Translations under genes and position numbers: made by a program
Shown here: piece by piece, positions 13,000-59,279 of the stretch
Layout of the letters: every line of letters starts with the position of its first letter
Numbering within the stretch: the first letter of the stretch is position 1
Notes under the pieces: model-generated
What the model was told of the DNA's origin: nothing
Database searches by the model: none
The model's input: the letters and a program-made list of their open reading frames with translations, nothing else
Origin: Fischerella sp. JS2
Lineage (GTDB): Bacteria > Cyanobacteriota > Cyanobacteriia > Cyanobacteriales > Nostocaceae
Reading direction: 5' to 3'
DNA length: 64,000 nucleotides
Assembly (NCBI RefSeq): GCF_032393985.1
Contig: NZ_CP135918.1
Location: forward strand, 1,984,001-2,048,000

Positions 13000-14140
13000 C
13001 CAATTTGAAAAAAGAATGCGACAGATGGTAAAAATAGACAGAAGTAGCATTCAGGGTATGTGATGGTAGGGGTAACACAGATCGAGATAGTTGATAGTGT
13101 CGAGGAACTAGAGAAGTTGCTCAGACATCAAAAACAGTCTCGGAGCAAAGAACGTATACAAGCCCTATATCTGATTAAAGGGCAAGAAATGAGTGTAAGT
13201 GAGATTGCTAAAATCTTGGGAAAACATCGAGCTACAGTACATCGATGGTTGGCAGATTATCGAGAAGGAGGAATTGAGGCGGTTGTTGAATTTGGAACGA
13301 GTTCAGGTCGAAAAAGAGCAATACCAGATTGGGCTGTATCGAGTTTGAAAAAACAACTCGAACAACCAGAAGGTGGGTTTCAACGGTACACACAAATACA
13401 ACATTGGTTAGAAAAAACCTTGGGTGTGCAAGCTGAGTACGCAACTGTACATCATCTGGCACGTTACAGGCTCAAAGCCAAGCTGAAAGTCCCACGTCCG
13501 CGTAACCGAAAACAGGACGAAGAAAAACTAGAGTCTTTTAAAAAAAACTCGGTGATGACTTGCAATTAATTGCTCAATACAGTGCCATTATCTTGCCCCA
13601 GTACGAAAATATTCGTTATTTTGTACAAGATGAGAGTCGATTTGGACTCAAAACCATTGAAGGACGTAAAATTACTCTTCCCGGAGTTAAGCCTATTGGT
13701 GATTGGCAGTGGCAATTTAAAGCGTTCTGGCTATATGGAGCAGTTGAACCACTTACTGGGGAAAGTTTATTTTGGCAGTTTTCTCATGTTGATACCGAAT
13801 GCTACCAACAATTTTTGAACGAGTTCGCTGCCTGTTATCCCAAATCACTTAACATTCTCCAAGTTGATAACGGCTTATTTCATAAAGCTAAACGTTTACA
13901 AATTCCAGAGAATATTGTTCTTTTGTTCCAGCCTGCTCATTCTCCTGAACTGAATCCCATAGAGCGCGTTTGGGAATATCTCAAGCAAGACTTGAAATGG
14001 GAGCTATTTGATCACCTGGAGCATCTGCAAACCAAGGTTGCTCAACTCCTAGCTCTCCTCACTCCTCAAATTGCTGCTTCTTTGACTGGTTATGACTTCA
14101 TCCTCAATGCCTTATCTGTCGCAAACATTTTTTGAATTGG
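13000..14140 (+). mobile_element. IS630-family insertion sequence, copy 1 (1141 bp)
   Basis: The element runs from CCAATTTGAAAAAAGAATGC to TTTTTTGAATTGG and is flanked by TA on both sides (12998-12999 and 14141-14142), the usual IS630 target duplication. Terminal inverted repeats of about 28 bp (CCAATTTGAAAA...GCGACAGAT against CCAATTCAAAAA...GCGACAGAT) are imperfect. It contains one frameshifted transposase gene. An identical-length copy lies at 58139-59279 in the opposite orientation. Confidence 0.93.
13060..14135 (+). CDS. IS630 transposase, two frames joined by -1 slippage
   Basis: The first frame (13060/13063-13569, 169 residues) holds helix-turn-helix DNA-binding domains (S-V-S-E-I-A-K-I-L-G-K-H-R-A-T-V-H-R-W). 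The second (open from 13542, to 14135) holds the RNase-H-like DDE core: V-Q-D-E-S-R-F-G (D), L-Q-V-D-N-G-L-F (D) and N-P-I-E-R-V-W-E (E). A run of eight A residues at 13540-13547 lies in the overlap. A -1 slip there gives a continuous protein through K-K-K-L-G-D-D-L-Q. Both copies in the window have the same structure, so this is programmed frameshifting rather than damage. A GTG at 13060 is directly followed by ATG at 13063. Confidence 0.93.
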
Positions 14141-33685: not shown

Positions 33686-33813
33686 ATAAAGATCTTAGAT
33701 ACATATAGATACAAATTCAGGCGAATATCCAGCGATAAAATTTGCCCATCTGTGAATAGGATGACGTGAGCTTTTGAGCCACTCCCCCGTTTTGAAAACG
33801 GGGGATTCAGGCA

Positions 33814-34938
33814 TCAAACAGAGATTGCAGTCTGAGACTGTCTAACATCTCCTACGCCTAGAGTCGAACTCCCGACTCTTTTAATATTAAGACTGGCGTT
33901 TTCATCTCTATCATTTTCAGATTGACATGAAGGACAACGCCAGCGTCTAATCGACAAATCCAATTTTTCTAAAATGTGTCCACAGCTAGAACAAGTTTTT
34001 GTGGATGGATACCATTGATCTACAAACACTACTTGTTTATGCTTCTTCTTAGCAATCCATTCTAGAATTTGCAGAAATTCACGCCTCGCCAAGTCTGATA
34101 TTTTCCTACCCCAAAGACGTTGCATTCCTTTAAGATTTAAGGTTTCAAAACAAAGCACATCAAAATTATCTGTTAATTTATGAGCGAGTTTCCAAAACCA
34201 ATCACGTCTACGATGAGAAATATCCTCATATTTGCGAACTAGATTTTTTCTAAATCGCTCTCTGTTTGATGAACCTTTGAGTTTTTTAGAATGCTGTCGG
34301 CTAGCTTTCCTAATGGCATTTAATGATTGTTTTAAAAATTGGGGAGACTCAATTTTTGTTCCGTCCGAGCAAGTGAGGAATGTTTTTAATCCAAAATCAA
34401 ATCCCGCTATTCTACCAGTCGCAAACTTGATTTTTGAATTAGAACAATCATCAACAACTATAATCATAAATAGCTCGCCTAAAGGAGTGCGTTTTATGGT
34501 TAAGGTTTTGACTGTTCCCTCTATCTCTCTCGACTTCCAAAATTGATAAACTTTGTTCCCAATCTTGACTCGATTTCCACCTAAAAACTTGTATCCAGAT
34601 TGTTTAAGAGTGAATGATTTGTATTTCTTAACTTTTTTAAATCCTGGCGGTCTAACTCCTTTTTTGTTGTGTTTAAAAAATAATTGGTAGGCTTTCTCAA
34701 TGCGTTGACAAATATCTTGTACTGATTGAGAACCTACTGTTTGCCAAAATGGATTACATTTCCGCAGTTTGGCAATATGAGATTGAAGTTTTGCACAGCT
34801 TAAGTGTTTGCCCCACATTCGATAGTAGCGTTTGTGTAGGGCAATACAATGATTGTAGATTATCCCACTCGCGTTAATCATGCGCTTGAGGAATCTATTT
34901 CTTTTGTGCTGATACAGTTTAAACTTCAGGGTTTTCAT
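33814..34938 (-). CDS. tnpB: TnpB, RNA-guided nuclease of IS200/IS605 elements
   Basis: The 374-residue protein has an N-terminal OrfB helix-turn-helix/wedge region (M-K-T-L-K-F-K-L-Y), a split RuvC nuclease and a zinc ribbon. The catalytic acids are in G-F-D-F-G-L-K-T-F (Asp), C-F-E-T-L-N-L-K-G-M (Glu) and D-R-D-E-N-A-S-L-N-I (Asp). The zinc ligands are C-S-S-C-G-H and C-P-S-C. TnpB uses an omega RNA from the element's right end to cut the empty donor site. All key residues are present, so it may be active. It is divergent from tnpA with 46 bases between. Confidence 0.95.
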   Translation of the reverse strand: MKTLKFKLYQHKRNRFLKRMINASGIIYNHCIALHKRYYRMWGKHLSCAKLQSHIAKLRKCNPFWQTVGSQSVQDICQRIEKAYQLFFKHNKKGVRPPGFKKVKKYKSFTLKQSGYKFLGGNRVKIGNKVYQFWKSREIEGTVKTLTIKRTPLGELFMIIVVDDCSNSKIKFATGRIAGFDFGLKTFLTCSDGTKIESPQFLKQSLNAIRKASRQHSKKLKGSSNRERFRKNLVRKYEDISHRRRDWFWKLAHKLTDNFDVLCFETLNLKGMQRLWGRKISDLARREFLQILEWIAKKKHKQVVFVDQWYPSTKTCSSCGHILEKLDLSIRRWRCPSCQSENDRDENASLNIKRVGSSTLGVGDVRQSQTAISV

Positions 34939-34984
34939 GTGATTATGATATCATCAGTGGTGTAGATAATCAATACTCATCTAC

Positions 34985-35386
34985 ATGAAAACTGTTTATA
35001 ATCATTACAATCATGCTGTTGGATTAGCTACTGTCCATTTAATCTGGATACCATGCAGACGCGCTCGTGTATTCGCTAATAACGAAAACTTAAAACTTCG
35101 ATGCATTGAAGTATTCCAGTCTGTTGCTAATGACAAGAAGTGGATTATCAAAGCATTAGAAGTTGCGCCGGATCATATACATCTACTAGTTGAATATGAT
35201 CCGCACCACTCAATATCTCAAATAGTTAAAGCTTTTAAAGGAAGGTCATCAAGACTACTAAGAAAAGAATTTCCAGAATTATTGAGATTACCTAGCTTAT
35301 GGACACATTCTTATATGTTTGACACGACTGGAAAGATTAGTACTCAGAAGGTTTTAGAGTATATTAATGACCCCCTTCACGGATGA
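34985..35386 (+). CDS. tnpA: IS200/IS605 transposase TnpA (HUH, Y1)
   Basis: The 133-residue Y1 transposase nicks and joins single-stranded DNA. The HUH motif is H-I-H-L-L-V-E-Y (A-P-D-H-I-H-L). The catalytic tyrosine is probably in W-T-H-S-Y-M-F-D-T. The C-terminal helix K-V-L-E-Y-I-N-D-P matches the family. It is intact and of normal length. It is divergent from tnpB; a stem-loop follows its stop. Confidence 0.93.
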   Translation: MKTVYNHYNHAVGLATVHLIWIPCRRARVFANNENLKLRCIEVFQSVANDKKWIIKALEVAPDHIHLLVEYDPHHSISQIVKAFKGRSSRLLRKEFPELLRLPSLWTHSYMFDTTGKISTQKVLEYINDPLHG

Positions 35387-35458
35387 ATAAATTCATCATG
35401 TTCGCTTATATCCGCCCTTTAGAAAAAGGCGGCTTTACGCATCACGATTCGTAATAAT

Positions 35459-36256
35459 GTGGAAGCGAGACTCAAGCAAATTTGTGATGCTGTGCAACCA
35501 GATGATTTACTCTGGGTGCATTTTGCTTGTCATGGGATTGTGGTGAAGACAGCAGGGAATCATAAAGAACCTGTTTTAATTACTTGTGATACTCAGCGAA
35601 ACCTATTAGAACAGCAAGCGCTTCCTGTGGCTAAGGTAGAGCAGTATATGAAAGGTAGTAGAGCACGACGCTTGCTATTAACTTTGGATGCTTGTCACAC
35701 TGGTTTAGATATTGGTAGAGATTTATTAGCTGATCCAGAGTTTATTCATAATGTTTACGAACAGGCTGAGGGTTTTGCGCTAATTGCAGCCAGCACAGCT
35801 CAACAAAAGGCTTTTGAATGGCAAGAAAAACAGCATGGTGTGTTTACCTATAATTTATTAGAAGGGCTAAGTGGTCAAGCTGATCGTGCAGGTAAGAATT
35901 TTGTCACCGTTGATGATTTGAAAAATCATGTGTTGGATGGTTTGCGGCGTTGGGGTGTAAAAAATGACGTTTTGCAAGAGCCGACAGCCCGTACGGAAGG
36001 ATTGGGCGATATGATTTTGGCTGATTATCGGGATAATCCAAAGCAGCAAACTAAATCAGGAGGTTCTGATGTGAGTCAAGCAAATAAACTGGAAAAGCAA
36101 CAATTACAACAAGAATTTGATAGTCTGAGTGAAGAGTACATGGTTGTCAATAAGCAACTCAGACAGGCGTTAAATGCTAGAGAACGTTTGCTGCTGAATA
36201 AACAAGCTGATGATATTTTGCAGCAAATGAAAGAAATTGAAGCGAAGTTAAAGTAA
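35459..36256 (+). CDS. caspase-family protease (5' truncated) with C-terminal adaptor
   Basis: Peptidase C14 (caspase p20) domain with the dyad His25 (H-F-A-C-H-G) and Cys79 (L-D-A-C-H-T-G). The N-terminal strand with the usual L-L-I-G-V-S-x-Y is missing. The frame can be read upstream to about 35423, where it meets the IS605-type element, so the 5' end is lost. A GTG at 35459 is the only internal start near by. Residues about 201-265 form a helical hairpin (L-E-K-Q-Q-L-Q-Q-E-F, E-E-Y-M-V-V-N-K-Q-L, then a Q-rich coil) matching the N-terminus of the next gene. This looks like an effector-associated adaptor domain. The protein is probably inactive or mis-expressed. Confidence 0.88.
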   Translation: MEARLKQICDAVQPDDLLWVHFACHGIVVKTAGNHKEPVLITCDTQRNLLEQQALPVAKVEQYMKGSRARRLLLTLDACHTGLDIGRDLLADPEFIHNVYEQAEGFALIAASTAQQKAFEWQEKQHGVFTYNLLEGLSGQADRAGKNFVTVDDLKNHVLDGLRRWGVKNDVLQEPTARTEGLGDMILADYRDNPKQQTKSGGSDVSQANKLEKQQLQQEFDSLSEEYMVVNKQLRQALNARERLLLNKQADDILQQMKEIEAKLK

Positions 36257-36273
36257 CTAAGTTGAGCTAGTTT

Positions 36274-37416
36274 ATGGCAGAGACGTTTAACACACGCGAT
36301 ATTCAAGCACAAGTGCTGAAGGAACGCTTCGCAAATTTATGCGAAGAGTATCTCGCAGTTAATAGGCAATGGAGTCAAGTGTATGATGAGCGTAACCGTC
36401 TGCTGCTTCAAAAACAGGCTAAGGATTTAGTAGAGCAAATGCAGCAAGTAGAGGCTGAGTTAAAACAGGTACTGGGACAACAAGAGTCAGTAAATGCAAT
36501 TCCTCACTGGGAAGATGTAGTAGAACAAGCGCAACAATCACAAAATTCTTTACCATCTTTACGAGATTTTGAGTTTGAAGTGGTGCGGATAGAAAACAAA
36601 GGTTTATTTGGTTTCCGTAAAGAACATCGTCATGTAGGAACTGCTAAATACTTTGCCGAAGATTTGGGACAAGGTATAAGTTTGGAGATGGTGGAAATTC
36701 CTAGTGGTAGATTTACAATGGGCGCACCGATAGAAGAAAGTCCTACTATGTACGAACAAAGACCGCAACATAGAGTCATCATTTCTACTTTTTTTATGGG
36801 TAAATACCTCATCACTCAAGCCCAATGGCGAGCAGTAGCCGCATTACCGAAAATTAATCGTGATTTAAAACCTGATCCATCCAAATTTAAAGGCGATAAC
36901 CGACCTGTAGAATCTGTATCTTGGTATGATGCAGTCGAATTTTGTGCCAGACTTTCCAGAAAAACAGGACGAGAATATCGACTAGCAAGTGAGGCTGAGT
37001 GGGAATATGCTTGTCGTGCTGGGACGACAACACGGTTTTATTTTGGTGAAACGATTACTACTGATTTGGCAAACTATGACGGTAACTGCATCTCTGGCGA
37101 TGCGCCTAAAGGAAAGTATCGAGAAGAAACAACGCCTGTAGGATATTTTCCACCTAACGCCTTTGGTTTATACGATATGCACGGCAATGTTTGGGAATGG
37201 TGTGCAGATTCTTGGCATAATAACTATGCAGGAGCGCCAGCTGATGGCAGTGCATGGCAAGGTTTGAATGATGAAGATCGAGTGCTGCGCGGTGGTTCGT
37301 GGCACAGCCATCCTCGGAACTGTAGTTCTGCCAGCCGCCTCTCCTATTTTCCCGACAACGTCGTCAGTTACCTCAACGGTTTTCGTGTTGTGTGCGGTGT
37401 TGCGCCGAGGACTTAG
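36274..37416 (+). CDS. FGE-sulfatase (C-type lectin fold) protein with N-terminal adaptor
   Basis: The 380-residue protein starts with a helical adaptor (about 1-70; E-E-Y-L-A-V-N-R-Q-W, R-L-L-L-Q-K-Q-A-K-D-L) homologous to the end of the caspase 17 bases upstream. A linker leads to a formylglycine-generating-enzyme-like domain (about 125-380). Motifs are M-V-E-I-P-S-G-R-F-T-M-G, R-L-A-S-E-A-E-W-E-Y-A-C-R-A-G, D-M-H-G-N-V-W-E-W-C and R-V-L-R-G-G-S-W ... G-F-R-V-V. In true FGE the segment after G-G-S-W carries two active-site cysteines; here it is H-S-H-P-R-N-C, with only one, so it is a binding rather than catalytic domain. The C-terminus looks like a DGR variable region. Confidence 0.9.
   Translation: MAETFNTRDIQAQVLKERFANLCEEYLAVNRQWSQVYDERNRLLLQKQAKDLVEQMQQVEAELKQVLGQQESVNAIPHWEDVVEQAQQSQNSLPSLRDFEFEVVRIENKGLFGFRKEHRHVGTAKYFAEDLGQGISLEMVEIPSGRFTMGAPIEESPTMYEQRPQHRVIISTFFMGKYLITQAQWRAVAALPKINRDLKPDPSKFKGDNRPVESVSWYDAVEFCARLSRKTGREYRLASEAEWEYACRAGTTTRFYFGETITTDLANYDGNCISGDAPKGKYREETTPVGYFPPNAFGLYDMHGNVWEWCADSWHNNYAGAPADGSAWQGLNDEDRVLRGGSWHSHPRNCSSASRLSYFPDNVVSYLNGFRVVCGVAPRT
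37285..37413 (+). other. candidate DGR variable region (VR)
   Basis: The last ~43 codons of the FGE-like gene encode R-V-L-R-G-G-S-W, then H-S-H-P-R-N-C-S-S-A-S-R-L-S-Y-F-P-D-N-V-V-S-Y-L-N, then G-F-R-V-V-C. In cyanobacterial DGR targets of this fold, the varied residues come from AAC/AAT codons of the template. Here several expected Asn positions are CAC, AGC, CAT, CTC, TCC, TAT, TTT and GTC, the outcome expected from substitutions at A. The 3' end (about 37378-37413) is GC-rich and constant, like an IMH. No template repeat or reverse transcriptase is in the window. Confidence 0.6.
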
Positions 37417-37604
37417 TGGCCCTTGACACTTTTGCCTTTTTGCCCTCTGCTCTTTTTTCTTTTCCCTTTGCCTTTTGCGATCGCAGCGATCTCGATTTAT
37501 TTTTACAGTTATCAGTTATCAGTTATCAGTGAACAGTTAAAGGGAACGGGAAGAAACAGGGAACGGGGAACTTGAAGATTGTGTATGTATTAGGCTTGAT
37601 ATTA

Positions 37605-37919
37605 AGTGAAATTGCGATTCGCATTGAGTCACATTAAGATCGCATCGAGTGACATTGCGATTGTATCGGGTCGCATTGCGATCGCATCGACTTGCATTAA
37701 GATCGCATCAAGTTACATTGCGATCGCATCGACTTGCATTAAGATCGCATCAAGTTACATTGCGATTGTATCGGGTCGCATTGCGATCGCATCGACTTGC
37801 ATTAAGATCAGATCGAGTTTCATGAAGATCGAATCGAGTTTCATGAAGATCGGATCAAGTTCTATTAAGTTTAAATCGAGTTACATTGCGATCGCATCAA
37901 GTTATAGCAATCTTAAATG
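37605..37919. repeat. 21-bp tandem array, 15 units, HIP1-rich
   Basis: Fifteen exact 21-bp periods start at 37605. The consensus is GAGTTACATTGCGATCGCAT plus C, and variants have GACTTGCATTAAGATCGCAT. Several units contain the HIP1 octamer GCGATCGC. The plus strand is open as I-A-S-S-Y-I-A heptads, but no ribosome site supports translation. It lies 189 bases downstream of the FGE-like gene and before the PIN toxin locus. Confidence 0.92.
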
Positions 37920-37942
37920 AGTTGTGAATATTGAGAGAGTCA

Positions 37943-45167: not shown

Positions 45168-46085
45168 ATGCAAACAATCTTAATTTTGACAGCGAATCCT
45201 CAAGGCACTTCACGATTACGTTTAGATCAGGAGGTACGAGATATTGCAGAAGGATTAGAGCGAGCAAAAAAACGCGATCAGTTTATTCTAGAGTCAAAGT
45301 TAGCAGTACGACCGAGGGACATCCAACGGGCAATGCTAGAGATCAATCCTTCTATTGTTCATTTTTCTGGACATGGGACGGGGGATGAGGGTTTGGTATT
45401 TGAAGATGAAACAGGTTTAGCAAAGCTAGTTGATGGAGAAGCGTTAGCGGGACTGTTTGCACTGTTTGCAGAGGAAGTTGAGTGTGTTGTTCTAAACGGC
45501 TGTTACTCAGATGTGCAAGCTTCGGCGATCGCTCAACACGTTAACTATGTGATTGGCATGAAAAAAGCGATCGCAGATAAAGCAGCAATTGAATTTGCTG
45601 TGGGTTTTTATGATGCTTTAGGATCTGGGAAAACTGTGGAATTTGCCTACAAATTTGGTTGCGCTGCCATTAATTTGGCAGGTATTCCAGACCAACTCAC
45701 CCCGACTCTGAAGAAAAAATCAAATATTGAGGAGACGGTTGTTAACAGGTTGCTTGAAAAGCAAGTAAATGAACATACATCTGAGGACTTTCAGGAACTC
45801 AGCAACTCTGATAGAGAAATACTTACAGAACTCCTGACACGCAGTGGACGTGCTGAACCTTCGGCACGAAAAGCACTGTGTATAAAAATTGGAATTGAAC
45901 CCAATCAACTTACATTTCTCAGACAATCAACTGATGCTGACTTTGCCTTAGAGCTAATTACTTATTTGCATATTACCGATGATCAACAAGCTCTTTGGAA
46001 AATCTGTAAGGAACTTGAAGTTGTATTTAAAAGAGGGAAGTACGCAGCTGATTTGGAAAGTATTAAATCAAAACTCAAAACTTAA
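45168..46085 (+). CDS. CHAT protease with C-terminal EAD1-like domain
   Basis: The 305-residue cytosolic protein has a compact CHAT domain at residues 1-185, with probable catalytic His69 (V-H-F-S-G-H-G) and Cys112 (V-L-N-G-C-Y-S-D). After a short linker, residues ~215-305 form a helical domain (L-C-I-K-I-G-I-E-P-N-Q-L, FLRQSTDADFALELITYL, G-K-Y-A-A-D-L-E-S-I-K-S). This matches what I remember as effector-associated domain 1 (EAD1), which couples effectors to partners by like-with-like binding. The neighbour 27 bases downstream carries the same domain at its N-terminus. Both active-site residues are present. Confidence 0.92.
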   Translation: MQTILILTANPQGTSRLRLDQEVRDIAEGLERAKKRDQFILESKLAVRPRDIQRAMLEINPSIVHFSGHGTGDEGLVFEDETGLAKLVDGEALAGLFALFAEEVECVVLNGCYSDVQASAIAQHVNYVIGMKKAIADKAAIEFAVGFYDALGSGKTVEFAYKFGCAAINLAGIPDQLTPTLKKKSNIEETVVNRLLEKQVNEHTSEDFQELSNSDREILTELLTRSGRAEPSARKALCIKIGIEPNQLTFLRQSTDADFALELITYLHITDDQQALWKICKELEVVFKRGKYAADLESIKSKLKT

Positions 46086-46112
46086 TTATAAGTAATATTA
46101 GGAGTAGCAAGT

Positions 46113-46901
46113 ATGACAACTCAATTCCTTTTGGATGAAGATGATATAAAACAATTAACAAAACTAATGTTACTAATGACCGAGACCCAAGAGTCAAGAA
46201 AACAACTATGTAGAGACCTTGGCATCAATCCCCAGGAAGTCTCGTTTATCAGAGATTCTTCCGATGATACATTTTGTACAGAGCTAATTGACTGTTTAAA
46301 TCGCTATGGCTATCAAGAAAATTTATGTAAGCTTTGTTGCAATAAATTGTTTCCTATTTTAAATAAATCAGTATATAGCCATCGTATATCCATTTTAAAA
46401 AAGATTATAGAAAAACTCAATTGCAATTGTAATTTTAATCAAGCCCAACAGAATCATCCAATACCAACTGTCACTAATCCATATGCATTAAAACCTGAAT
46501 CATGGTTGACAAAAATCAGTAACGTTAACAAAAAACTACTTGCAAGTGGTGCAATTATGCTAATTGGGTTAGCAGGATTTTCCATCGGGCAAATCGGGCA
46601 ATCTCATAAAACTGCCATAGCTGGTTGTCCTGCTTCTTATCCGTGGGAATTTGGCTGGGGATTAAGTTCTAAAAGTTTTGCAGGAGAGTGGAATCAGAAC
46701 AGAACTTATATCAAGATTGACGGGAATAAAGTAATTGTCTTTCAATCTGAAGCTTCCCGTCGCCCAAATGGAGAAGGTGAGGTAATTTCCGAGAATCCTC
46801 CAAAAATCCAGGTGAATTATCCTGATGACAGGACACTTAGAGGTGAACTCGTTCAGTCAAATTGCATAAAGTGGAATGATGACACTTTTTGGAGCCGCTA
46901 A
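46113..46901 (+). CDS. EAD1-like domain, transmembrane helix and extracytoplasmic domain
   Basis: The 262-residue protein begins with an EAD1-like helical domain (about 8-100; L-C-R-D-L-G-I-N-P-Q-E-V, FIRDSSDDTFCTELIDCL). It continues through a linker to one membrane helix (about 143-162; L-L-A-S-G-A-I-M-L-I-G-L-A-G-F-S-I-G). It ends with about 95 extracytoplasmic residues (F-A-G-E-W-N-Q-N-R-T-Y-I-K-I-D-G-N-K-V-I-V, two cysteines C-P and N-C), which look like a small beta-sandwich or lipocalin-like sensor. In operon order it follows the CHAT-EAD1 gene. A sensor-anchor for the protease is an inference. Confidence 0.85.
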   Translation: MTTQFLLDEDDIKQLTKLMLLMTETQESRKQLCRDLGINPQEVSFIRDSSDDTFCTELIDCLNRYGYQENLCKLCCNKLFPILNKSVYSHRISILKKIIEKLNCNCNFNQAQQNHPIPTVTNPYALKPESWLTKISNVNKKLLASGAIMLIGLAGFSIGQIGQSHKTAIAGCPASYPWEFGWGLSSKSFAGEWNQNRTYIKIDGNKVIVFQSEASRRPNGEGEVISENPPKIQVNYPDDRTLRGELVQSNCIKWNDDTFWSR

Positions 46902-58138: not shown

Positions 58139-59279
58139 CCAATTCAAAAAATGTTTGCGACAGATAAGGCATTGAGGATGAAGTCATAACCAGTCAAAGA
58201 AGCAGCAATTTGAGGAGTGAGGAGAGCTAGGAGTTGAGCAACCTTGGTTTGCAGATGCTCCAGGTGATCAAATAGCTCCCATTTCAAGTCTTGCTTGAGA
58301 TATTCCCAAACGCGCTCTATGGGATTCAGTTCAGGAGAATGAGCAGGCTGGAACAAAAGAACAATATTCTCTGGAATTTGTAAACGTTTAGCTTTATGAA
58401 ATAAGCCGTTATCAACTTGGAGAATGTTAAGTGATTTGGGATAACAGGCAGCGAACTCGTTCAAAAATTGTTGGTAGCATTCGGTATCAACATGAGAAAA
58501 CTGCCAAAATAAACTTTCCCCAGTAAGTGGTTCAACTGCTCCATATAGCCAGAACGCTTTAAATTGCCACTGCCAATCACCAATAGGCTTAACTCCGGGA
58601 AGAGTAATTTTACGTCCTTCAATGGTTTTGAGTCCAAATCGACTCTCATCTTGTACAAAATAACGAATATTTTCGTACTGGGGCAAGATAATGGCACTGT
58701 ATTGAGCAATTAATTGCAAGTCATCACCGAGTTTTTTTTAAAAGACTCTAGTTTTTCTTCGTCCTGTTTTCGGTTACGCGGACGTGGGACTTTCAGCTTG
58801 GCTTTGAGCCTGTAACGTGCCAGATGATGTACAGTTGCGTACTCAGCTTGCACACCCAAGGTTTTTTCTAACCAATGTTGTATTTGTGTGTACCGTTGAA
58901 ACCCACCTTCTGGTTGTTCGAGTTGTTTTTTCAAACTCGATACAGCCCAATCTGGTATTGCTCTTTTTCGACCTGAACTCGTTCCAAATTCAACAACCGC
59001 CTCAATTCCTCCTTCTCGATAATCTGCCAACCATCGATGTACTGTAGCTCGATGTTTTCCCAAGATTTTAGCAATCTCACTTACACTCATTTCTTGCCCT
59101 TTAATCAGATATAGGGCTTGTATACGTTCTTTGCTCCGAGACTGTTTTTGATGTCTGAGCAACTTCTCTAGTTCCTCGACACTATCAACTATCTCGATCT
59201 GTGTTACCCCTACCATCACATACCCTGAATGCTACTTCTGTCTATTTTTACCATCTGTCGCATTCTTTTTTCAAATTGG
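58139..59279 (-). mobile_element. IS630-family insertion sequence, copy 2 (1141 bp)
   Basis: Same length, ends and transposase as the copy at 13000-14140 but inverted. TA dinucleotides flank it (58137-58138 and 59280-59281). The predicted proteins of both copies are identical, so they are recent sister insertions. Insertion is immediately upstream of the radical SAM gene. Confidence 0.93.
58144..59219 (-). CDS. IS630 transposase, copy 2, -1 frameshift
   Basis: The first frame (59219/59216 to 58710) gives the 169-residue HTH part. The second (open from about 58737 to 58144) gives the DDE catalytic part. The eight-A slippery run is read as T residues on the plus strand at about 58732-58739. 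Residues are identical to the copy at 13060-14135, including D-E-S-R-F-G, Q-V-D-N-G and P-I-E-R-V-W-E. It is expected to be active if the frameshift works. Confidence 0.92.

Follow-up and report, generated by a model that had tools for sequence, protein, structure and literature searches.

One adaptor domain in adjacent caspase and lectin-fold genes of Fischerella suggests a split sensor-protease

Two adjacent genes of Fischerella sp. JS2 carry the same adaptor, an effector-associated domain of the EAD9 family. One encodes a caspase with EAD9 at its C-terminus, the other an FGE (C-type-lectin-fold) protein with EAD9 at its N-terminus (Table 1). Both lie in the window, the stretch of 64,000 nucleotides that we analysed (1984001-2048000 of a single-contig 7.02 Mb genome). 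By comparing sequences we find both EAD9s, privately matched evolution of such pairs within their loci, an intact version of the pair in a second genome, an alternative form in which caspase and lectin are fused, and a truncation of the caspase gene in the window. The arrangement suggests that the adaptor clips a sensor and a protease together.

We propose, with a probability of roughly 60%, that the two genes together represent a single sensor-protease in split form. The FGE protein would sense a ligand and the caspase would act as the effector. The EAD9 hairpins at the caspase tail and at the lectin head would bind each other, and this contact would stand in for the peptide bond through which fused relatives hold the same domains together. 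A ligand bound by the lectin would gather the caspase and activate it, and the infected cell would probably be killed or arrested. We infer three parts of this scheme: the binding of EAD9 to EAD9, activation of the caspase rather than restraint, and a role in defence.

EADs have been proposed, on the basis of domain context, to act as homotypic bridges in systems that correspond in bacteria to apoptosomes and inflammasomes. In the pair described here lectin and caspase are linked with no NTPase core, which usually lies between the two. The question of EAD bridging is thereby narrowed to a pair of small proteins, with a fused form as control.

Table 1. Positions of the features in the window (position 1 is its first nucleotide)
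Feature	Position	Strand	Details
IS200/IS605-type element	about 33773..35454	.	TnpB 33814-34938 (-); Y1 transposase TnpA 34985-35386 (+)
5'-truncated caspase gene	35459..36256	+	265 aa ORF from GTG; orthologue's first 62 residues missing
Block absent from caspase-FGE fusions	36032..36533	+	Caspase tail, EAD9, stop, gap, start, EAD9; about 500 bp
EAD9 at caspase C-terminus	36077..36253	+	PF19962, residues 207-265 of 265-aa ORF; 51.6 bits, E 8.2e-14, cut-off 25 (Pfam)
Gap between caspase and FGE genes	36257..36273	+	17 bases, from sequence
EAD9-FGE gene	36274..37416	+	380 aa; lectin-fold protein with retroelement-diversified relatives
EAD9 at FGE N-terminus	36292..36468	+	PF19962, residues 7-65; 54.3 bits, E 1.1e-14, cut-off 25 (Pfam)
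FGE-sulfatase / C-type-lectin-fold domain	36685..37392	+	PF03781, E 4.2e-55
Variable region with homology to target and template of the DGR in this genome	37285..37395	+	19/37 identical to the F. muscicola pair (L100)

One adaptor in two adjacent genes

A preliminary description of this DNA had noticed a gapless similarity of about 50 residues between the two proteins, in genes 17 bases apart. Both ORFs are where it placed them, and the shared stretch comprises 52 residues without a gap, 26 of them identical. The alignment has a BLOSUM62 score of 136. Among 5000 plain shuffles of the stretch the best score is 66. If residues are shuffled within the heptad register, the best score is 79, and none of 5000 shuffles reaches 136. 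Hence the similarity exceeds what a generic coiled-coil provides. The preliminary description had taken the stretch for an EAD that joins a caspase to an FGE-like protein, and had proposed a profile search with the EAD families. That search confirms the idea and names the family: EAD9 exceeds the cut-off in both genes (Table 1).

The description had itself raised the alternative that the similarity is that of a generic coiled-coil. Helical hairpins are indeed predicted for both stretches. In AlphaFold2 models (three-row alignments, single chains) each EAD9 forms a pair of long helices, for the most part at pLDDT 60-90; the mean pLDDT of the two models is 47.6 and 40.6, with low confidence outside the hairpins. 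The heptad-register shuffles speak against a generic coiled-coil, and so does the curated EAD9 model. At the level of sequence this alternative is already refuted, and we give it next to no credence.

Elsewhere in the window, at 45168-46901, a CHAT-domain gene lies ahead of a second gene, and by eye the N-terminus of the latter is similar to the C-terminus of the CHAT protein. This is perhaps another adaptor-linked pair. Pfam matches CHAT alone in the first of these genes and nothing in the second.

Caspase and lectin in truncated, intact and fused forms

The caspase gene in the window is cut on its 5' side by an IS200/IS605 element. DNA similarity to the orthologous locus of Fischerella muscicola starts at 35450, where the element ends. 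The Peptidase_C14 catalytic domain is incomplete, with a Pfam match that covers only positions 49-202 of the 233 in the profile; in the orthologue the match lies at 1-201. The motifs HFACHG (His) and LDACHTG (Cys), which we take to be those of the caspase dyad, are kept. The genome holds seven full copies of the element including this one, at 100% identity and with nearly the same ends. Its TnpA matches Y1_Tnp (E 8.1e-33, Pfam) and its TnpB exceeds the cut-off of the family model guided_TnpB. The window also contains two identical copies of a two-ORF transposase (13060-14135 and 58144-59219), in opposite orientation and about 45 kb apart.

A search of the 64,000 nucleotides did not recover the lost 62 N-terminal residues, and a search of the genome produced nothing better than weak hits in two other caspases (best E 0.03). 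A 124-aa Peptidase_C14 fragment at 756272 was compared as a candidate for the missing N-terminus and is not it. Because the first part of the Peptidase_C14 domain is missing, the caspase copy in the window is probably broken and inactive. The damage looks recent, since the residues were lost beside an IS element with seven identical copies; the module in the window is probably a recent casualty.

It is likely, then, that the module is a dead relic in this genome, or that the headless caspase persists only as a protease-inactive, EAD9-bearing partner of the lectin. The lost N-terminus and the adjoining multicopy element favor such a fate. However, the remaining ORF is open, and the caspase domain is 94% identical to that of F. 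muscicola with a dN/dS of 0.11, a value that mostly records the period preceding the loss. The relic reading concerns the window copy only and is compatible with a split sensor-protease in the intact version. As the caspase half lacks its N-terminus in this genome, the working version would be that of F. muscicola. PADLOC matches the caspase to its generic caspase model only, and the FGE protein to no model.

Fischerella muscicola SAG 1427-1 (G505) has an intact orthologue of the caspase with EAD9 (L100, 5188-6168). It is 327 residues long, 62 more at the N-terminus than in the window. An EAD9-FGE gene of 383 residues follows, and then the same malQ and treS-type genes as in the window (neighbours identified from their ORFs and from the similarity of the DNA to that of the window). 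C14, EAD9 and FGE all exceed their Pfam cut-offs. This intact orthologous pair is new here, and its position in the same place beside malQ counts in favor of the split sensor-protease. The co-occurrence in other genomes that mattered to the preliminary description is hence real in this one locus but rare: among the 217 genomes of the family, a whole-length caspase match including EAD9 occurs in F. muscicola as the only other genome. A plasmid search with the caspase found no place covering 80% of it. Downstream of the FGE gene in the window lies a tandem array of a 21-bp repeat (37604-37923, 13.6 copies); similar arrays stand downstream of two loci in F. muscicola, the pair (8 copies) and a fusion (L101, 15 copies).

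This fusion is one of two further close caspase matches that stop before EAD9. One is in genome G504 (L082, contig C126, 553 aa), the other at a second locus of F. muscicola (L101). At both loci the frame runs directly from the caspase into the FGE domain, and the caspase domain is about 92-93% identical in nucleotides to that of the window. Aligning the DNA of the window, the intact pair and both fusions leaves one difference between the fused and the split layout: a single block of about 500 bp, whose ends in Table 1 are good to a few bases as read from the alignment. The fused and the split version of this putative sensor-protease are thus close relatives that are set apart at the junction by the block with the adaptors. 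In G504, one of the genomes with a fusion, EAD9 has no match at E 0.001. The split pair is seen in only two genomes and the fusion in two; F. muscicola holds both. Protein and DNA trees give no direction, be it from split to fused or from fused to split; the FGE tree leaves out 10 of 33 loci, which have no FGE by the motif used. Also new here is that this caspase and this FGE lectin are fused directly to each other, in two genomes.

Other single chains count for the split sensor-protease as independent forms. A trypsin, EAD9 and iSTAND share one chain at L052. At L141 EAD9-VMAP stands behind a trypsin-like tail, in a frame that begins at a contig edge; the tail has no Pfam trypsin match. The genome's own DGR target, likewise a caspase-FGE fusion, is also in its favor. 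The L101 fusion counts against it, in that its FGE frame is broken upstream of the variable region.

The lectin itself has solved relatives such as Treponema denticola variable protein 1 (2y3c, E 1e-21). Its C-terminal variable region is related to the template of the DGR at 6.53 Mb in the same genome (match at 6537945-6537995, E 5.2e-6). This DGR (L008:5429-9073) consists of the fusion target, bAvd, a reverse transcriptase and the template. In comparison to the F. muscicola lectin, 181 of 211 positions are identical in the rest of the domain, against 19 of 37 in the variable region. The dN/dS is 0.47 in both parts, hence the excess in the variable region lies in the rate and not in the ratio.

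Over 25 unambiguously aligned codons (75 bases), the target of the DGR in this genome departs from its template at 9 of 14 adenines and at none of the 61 other sites. The differences of the window lectin from the template are not confined to adenines (8 of 14 adenines, 12 of 61 other sites). Between the window lectin and that of F. muscicola the counts are 9 of 14 template adenines and 10 of 61 other sites (p 0.0007). A search of this genome found no template nearer to the window lectin, and a search of the draft F. muscicola genome at E 1e-20 found no relative of the DGR reverse transcriptase. The variable region looks like a former retroelement target, with diversification in the past but not recently. 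Thus, of the diversified lectin in the preliminary description, the past retroelement-type variation stands, enriched at template adenines; current diversification is not shown, because 12 of 61 non-adenine sites also deviate from the template, the single one that the genome search found.

EAD9 pairs in related genomes

EAD9 is found in 60 of 388 genomes of the order at E 0.001 and exceeds the cut-off in 48. Across the phylum it occurs in 15 of 386 genomes at E 1e-5, and 14 of these 15 belong to this order. Forty EAD9 stretches selected from the order survey give, together with the window, 71 frames with EAD9. The adaptor stands behind its partner domain in 38 frames (26 Trypsin_2, 5 CHAT, 2 TIR_2, 2 PNP and, in the window, 1 Peptidase_C14). 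It stands in front in 33, 28 of them at E 0.001 for EAD9 (16 iSTAND, 5 VMAP-C and, in the window, 1 FGE). The usual partners are a trypsin with iSTAND or VMAP, and caspase with FGE is the exception. Therefore, the lectin of the window pair occupies the usual place of iSTAND or VMAP. The genome survey that the preliminary description had suggested has yielded this catalogue and, through the search with the caspase, the second caspase/FGE pair.

Relatives of the caspase differ in their partner or adaptor. Genome G408 (L084) has a 70%-identical caspase with EAD9, followed by EAD9-iSTAND. Two more distant caspases that we scanned (L086 and L088) have the death-like domain bDLD1 in place of EAD9. 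Hence, one caspase subfamily is found with several adaptors.

The prevalence of iSTAND and VMAP partners would fit a pair that serves, as an accessory recruited via EAD9, a MoxR-vWA ternary system encoded at another place in the genome. AAA and FGE genes lie downstream of the EAD9 pair in two related loci, L045 and L078, the latter also with a vWA gene. At L045, trypsin-EAD9 and EAD9-iSTAND are followed by AAA, then by a protein of 958 aa with FGE at its end and last by a reverse transcriptase. (A simple MoxR motif search missed this AAA gene, which Pfam found; we do not count that search as evidence.) In Fischerella sp. JS2, however, a whole-genome search finds EAD9 above the cut-off in the two window genes only; a third match sits below it at E 0.05. 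Pfam detects neither a MoxR AAA ATPase nor a vWA gene among the 15 window proteins scanned, and the ten of these that lie outside the first set of five have no iSTAND, VMAP, vWA or AAA match at E 1e-5. We therefore consider an accessory role very improbable.

To describe how partner EAD9s evolve, we define a pair as two EAD9s less than 400 nt apart in neighbouring frames. The stretches from Cyanobacteriales and the window contain 28 such pairs, and all are tail-to-head: the upstream EAD9 ends 0-11 residues before the end of its frame and the downstream one starts at residue 2-35. After dereplication 19 loci remain. Partners are on average 57% identical and non-partners 25% (permutation p 5e-5, the lower limit for 20000 permutations). 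In 17 of the 19 loci the true partner ranks first. It ranks fifth and tenth in the remaining two, which counts against the split sensor-protease. In the window the partners are 48% identical over the model columns, and the true partner ranks first. Thus, judged by sequence, adjacent genes share one EAD whose partner copies are more alike than those of other loci. These tail-to-head, within-locus matched pairs and their count are new here; within-locus likeness of EADs has been reported as a trend, without this count (Kaur et al. 2020, PMC7159879, in the part considered here).

Matched partners could instead reflect descent by local duplication, with EAD9 driving assemblies of the same protein (caspase with caspase, lectin with lectin) like death-fold filaments. 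Homotypic domains can self-associate, and in 5 of the 28 pairs dS is at most 0.4, hence the matching stems in part from recent duplication or conversion. For 15 of the 28, the window and the F. muscicola pair included, dS is saturated or not computable, and the similarity of these pairs is therefore not due to recent copying. In such pairs the protein match is kept, as at L067 with 73% identity. The two caspase-FGE fusions, moreover, unite caspase and lectin in one chain without either EAD9. We regard same-protein assembly as unlikely. At L069, L072 and L078 the partners are 85-90% identical, and two of these three have a low dS, as after recent duplication or conversion.

Tail-to-head EAD9 pairs in general may, tentatively, be a clasp for split genes. 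A chain would be cut and rejoined by a duplicated adaptor, so that the halves could be swapped while each interface stays private. The caspase/lectin pair would be the shortest form, a caspase receptor in two pieces that does without the NTPase core and links the ligand directly to the protease. If this is true, the swappable halves are caspase or trypsin on one side and lectin, iSTAND or VMAP on the other. We hold this generalization more doubtful than the split sensor-protease itself.

Relation to known systems

We compare the pair with four published accounts, as given in those parts of their main text that we considered; supplements are outside this scope. Within it, an EAD9-bearing caspase/FGE pair is described in none of them (PMC7159879, PMC8195603, PMC10907252, PMC7517822).

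In EAD-coupled conflict systems, EADs are predicted from domain context to be homotypic bridges, and EAD9 is described as a recruiter of signalling components for the most part (Kaur et al. 2020, PMC7159879). As here, one EAD occurs on adjacent genes, is more alike within a locus and has a partner of the peptidase class. In contrast, a core component (VMAP, iSTAND, Ubl, GAP1) carries one of the copies in every case there, whereas the partner here is an FGE lectin only.

DGR sensors include FGE-type C-lectin targets that are linked to peptidase effectors via an EAD, namely EAD8 (Dore et al. 2024, PMC10907252). The target there contains a STAND NTPase and lies within a DGR; the pair described here has no NTPase and no adjacent DGR. 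Among cyanobacterial variable proteins, orthocaspase-like domains stand N-terminal to a C-lectin, in remote variable proteins too (Vallota-Eastman et al. 2020, PMC7517822). Our L008 and L102 may be compared with these proteins, which are, however, single chains, and the text considered mentions no EAD for them.

In bDLD3-lectin systems, adaptor-lectin and adaptor-effector genes stand in tandem, as in bDLD3-NPCBM with bDLD3-PNPase, and the lectin has been proposed to sense the invader directly (Kaur et al. 2021, PMC8195603). Since a bDLD3-FGS protein without an NTPase has already been described there, in one case from Symploca, the general adaptor-lectin layout is not new. What differs here is that the adaptor is EAD9, that the effector is a caspase, and that a fused form without the adaptor exists.
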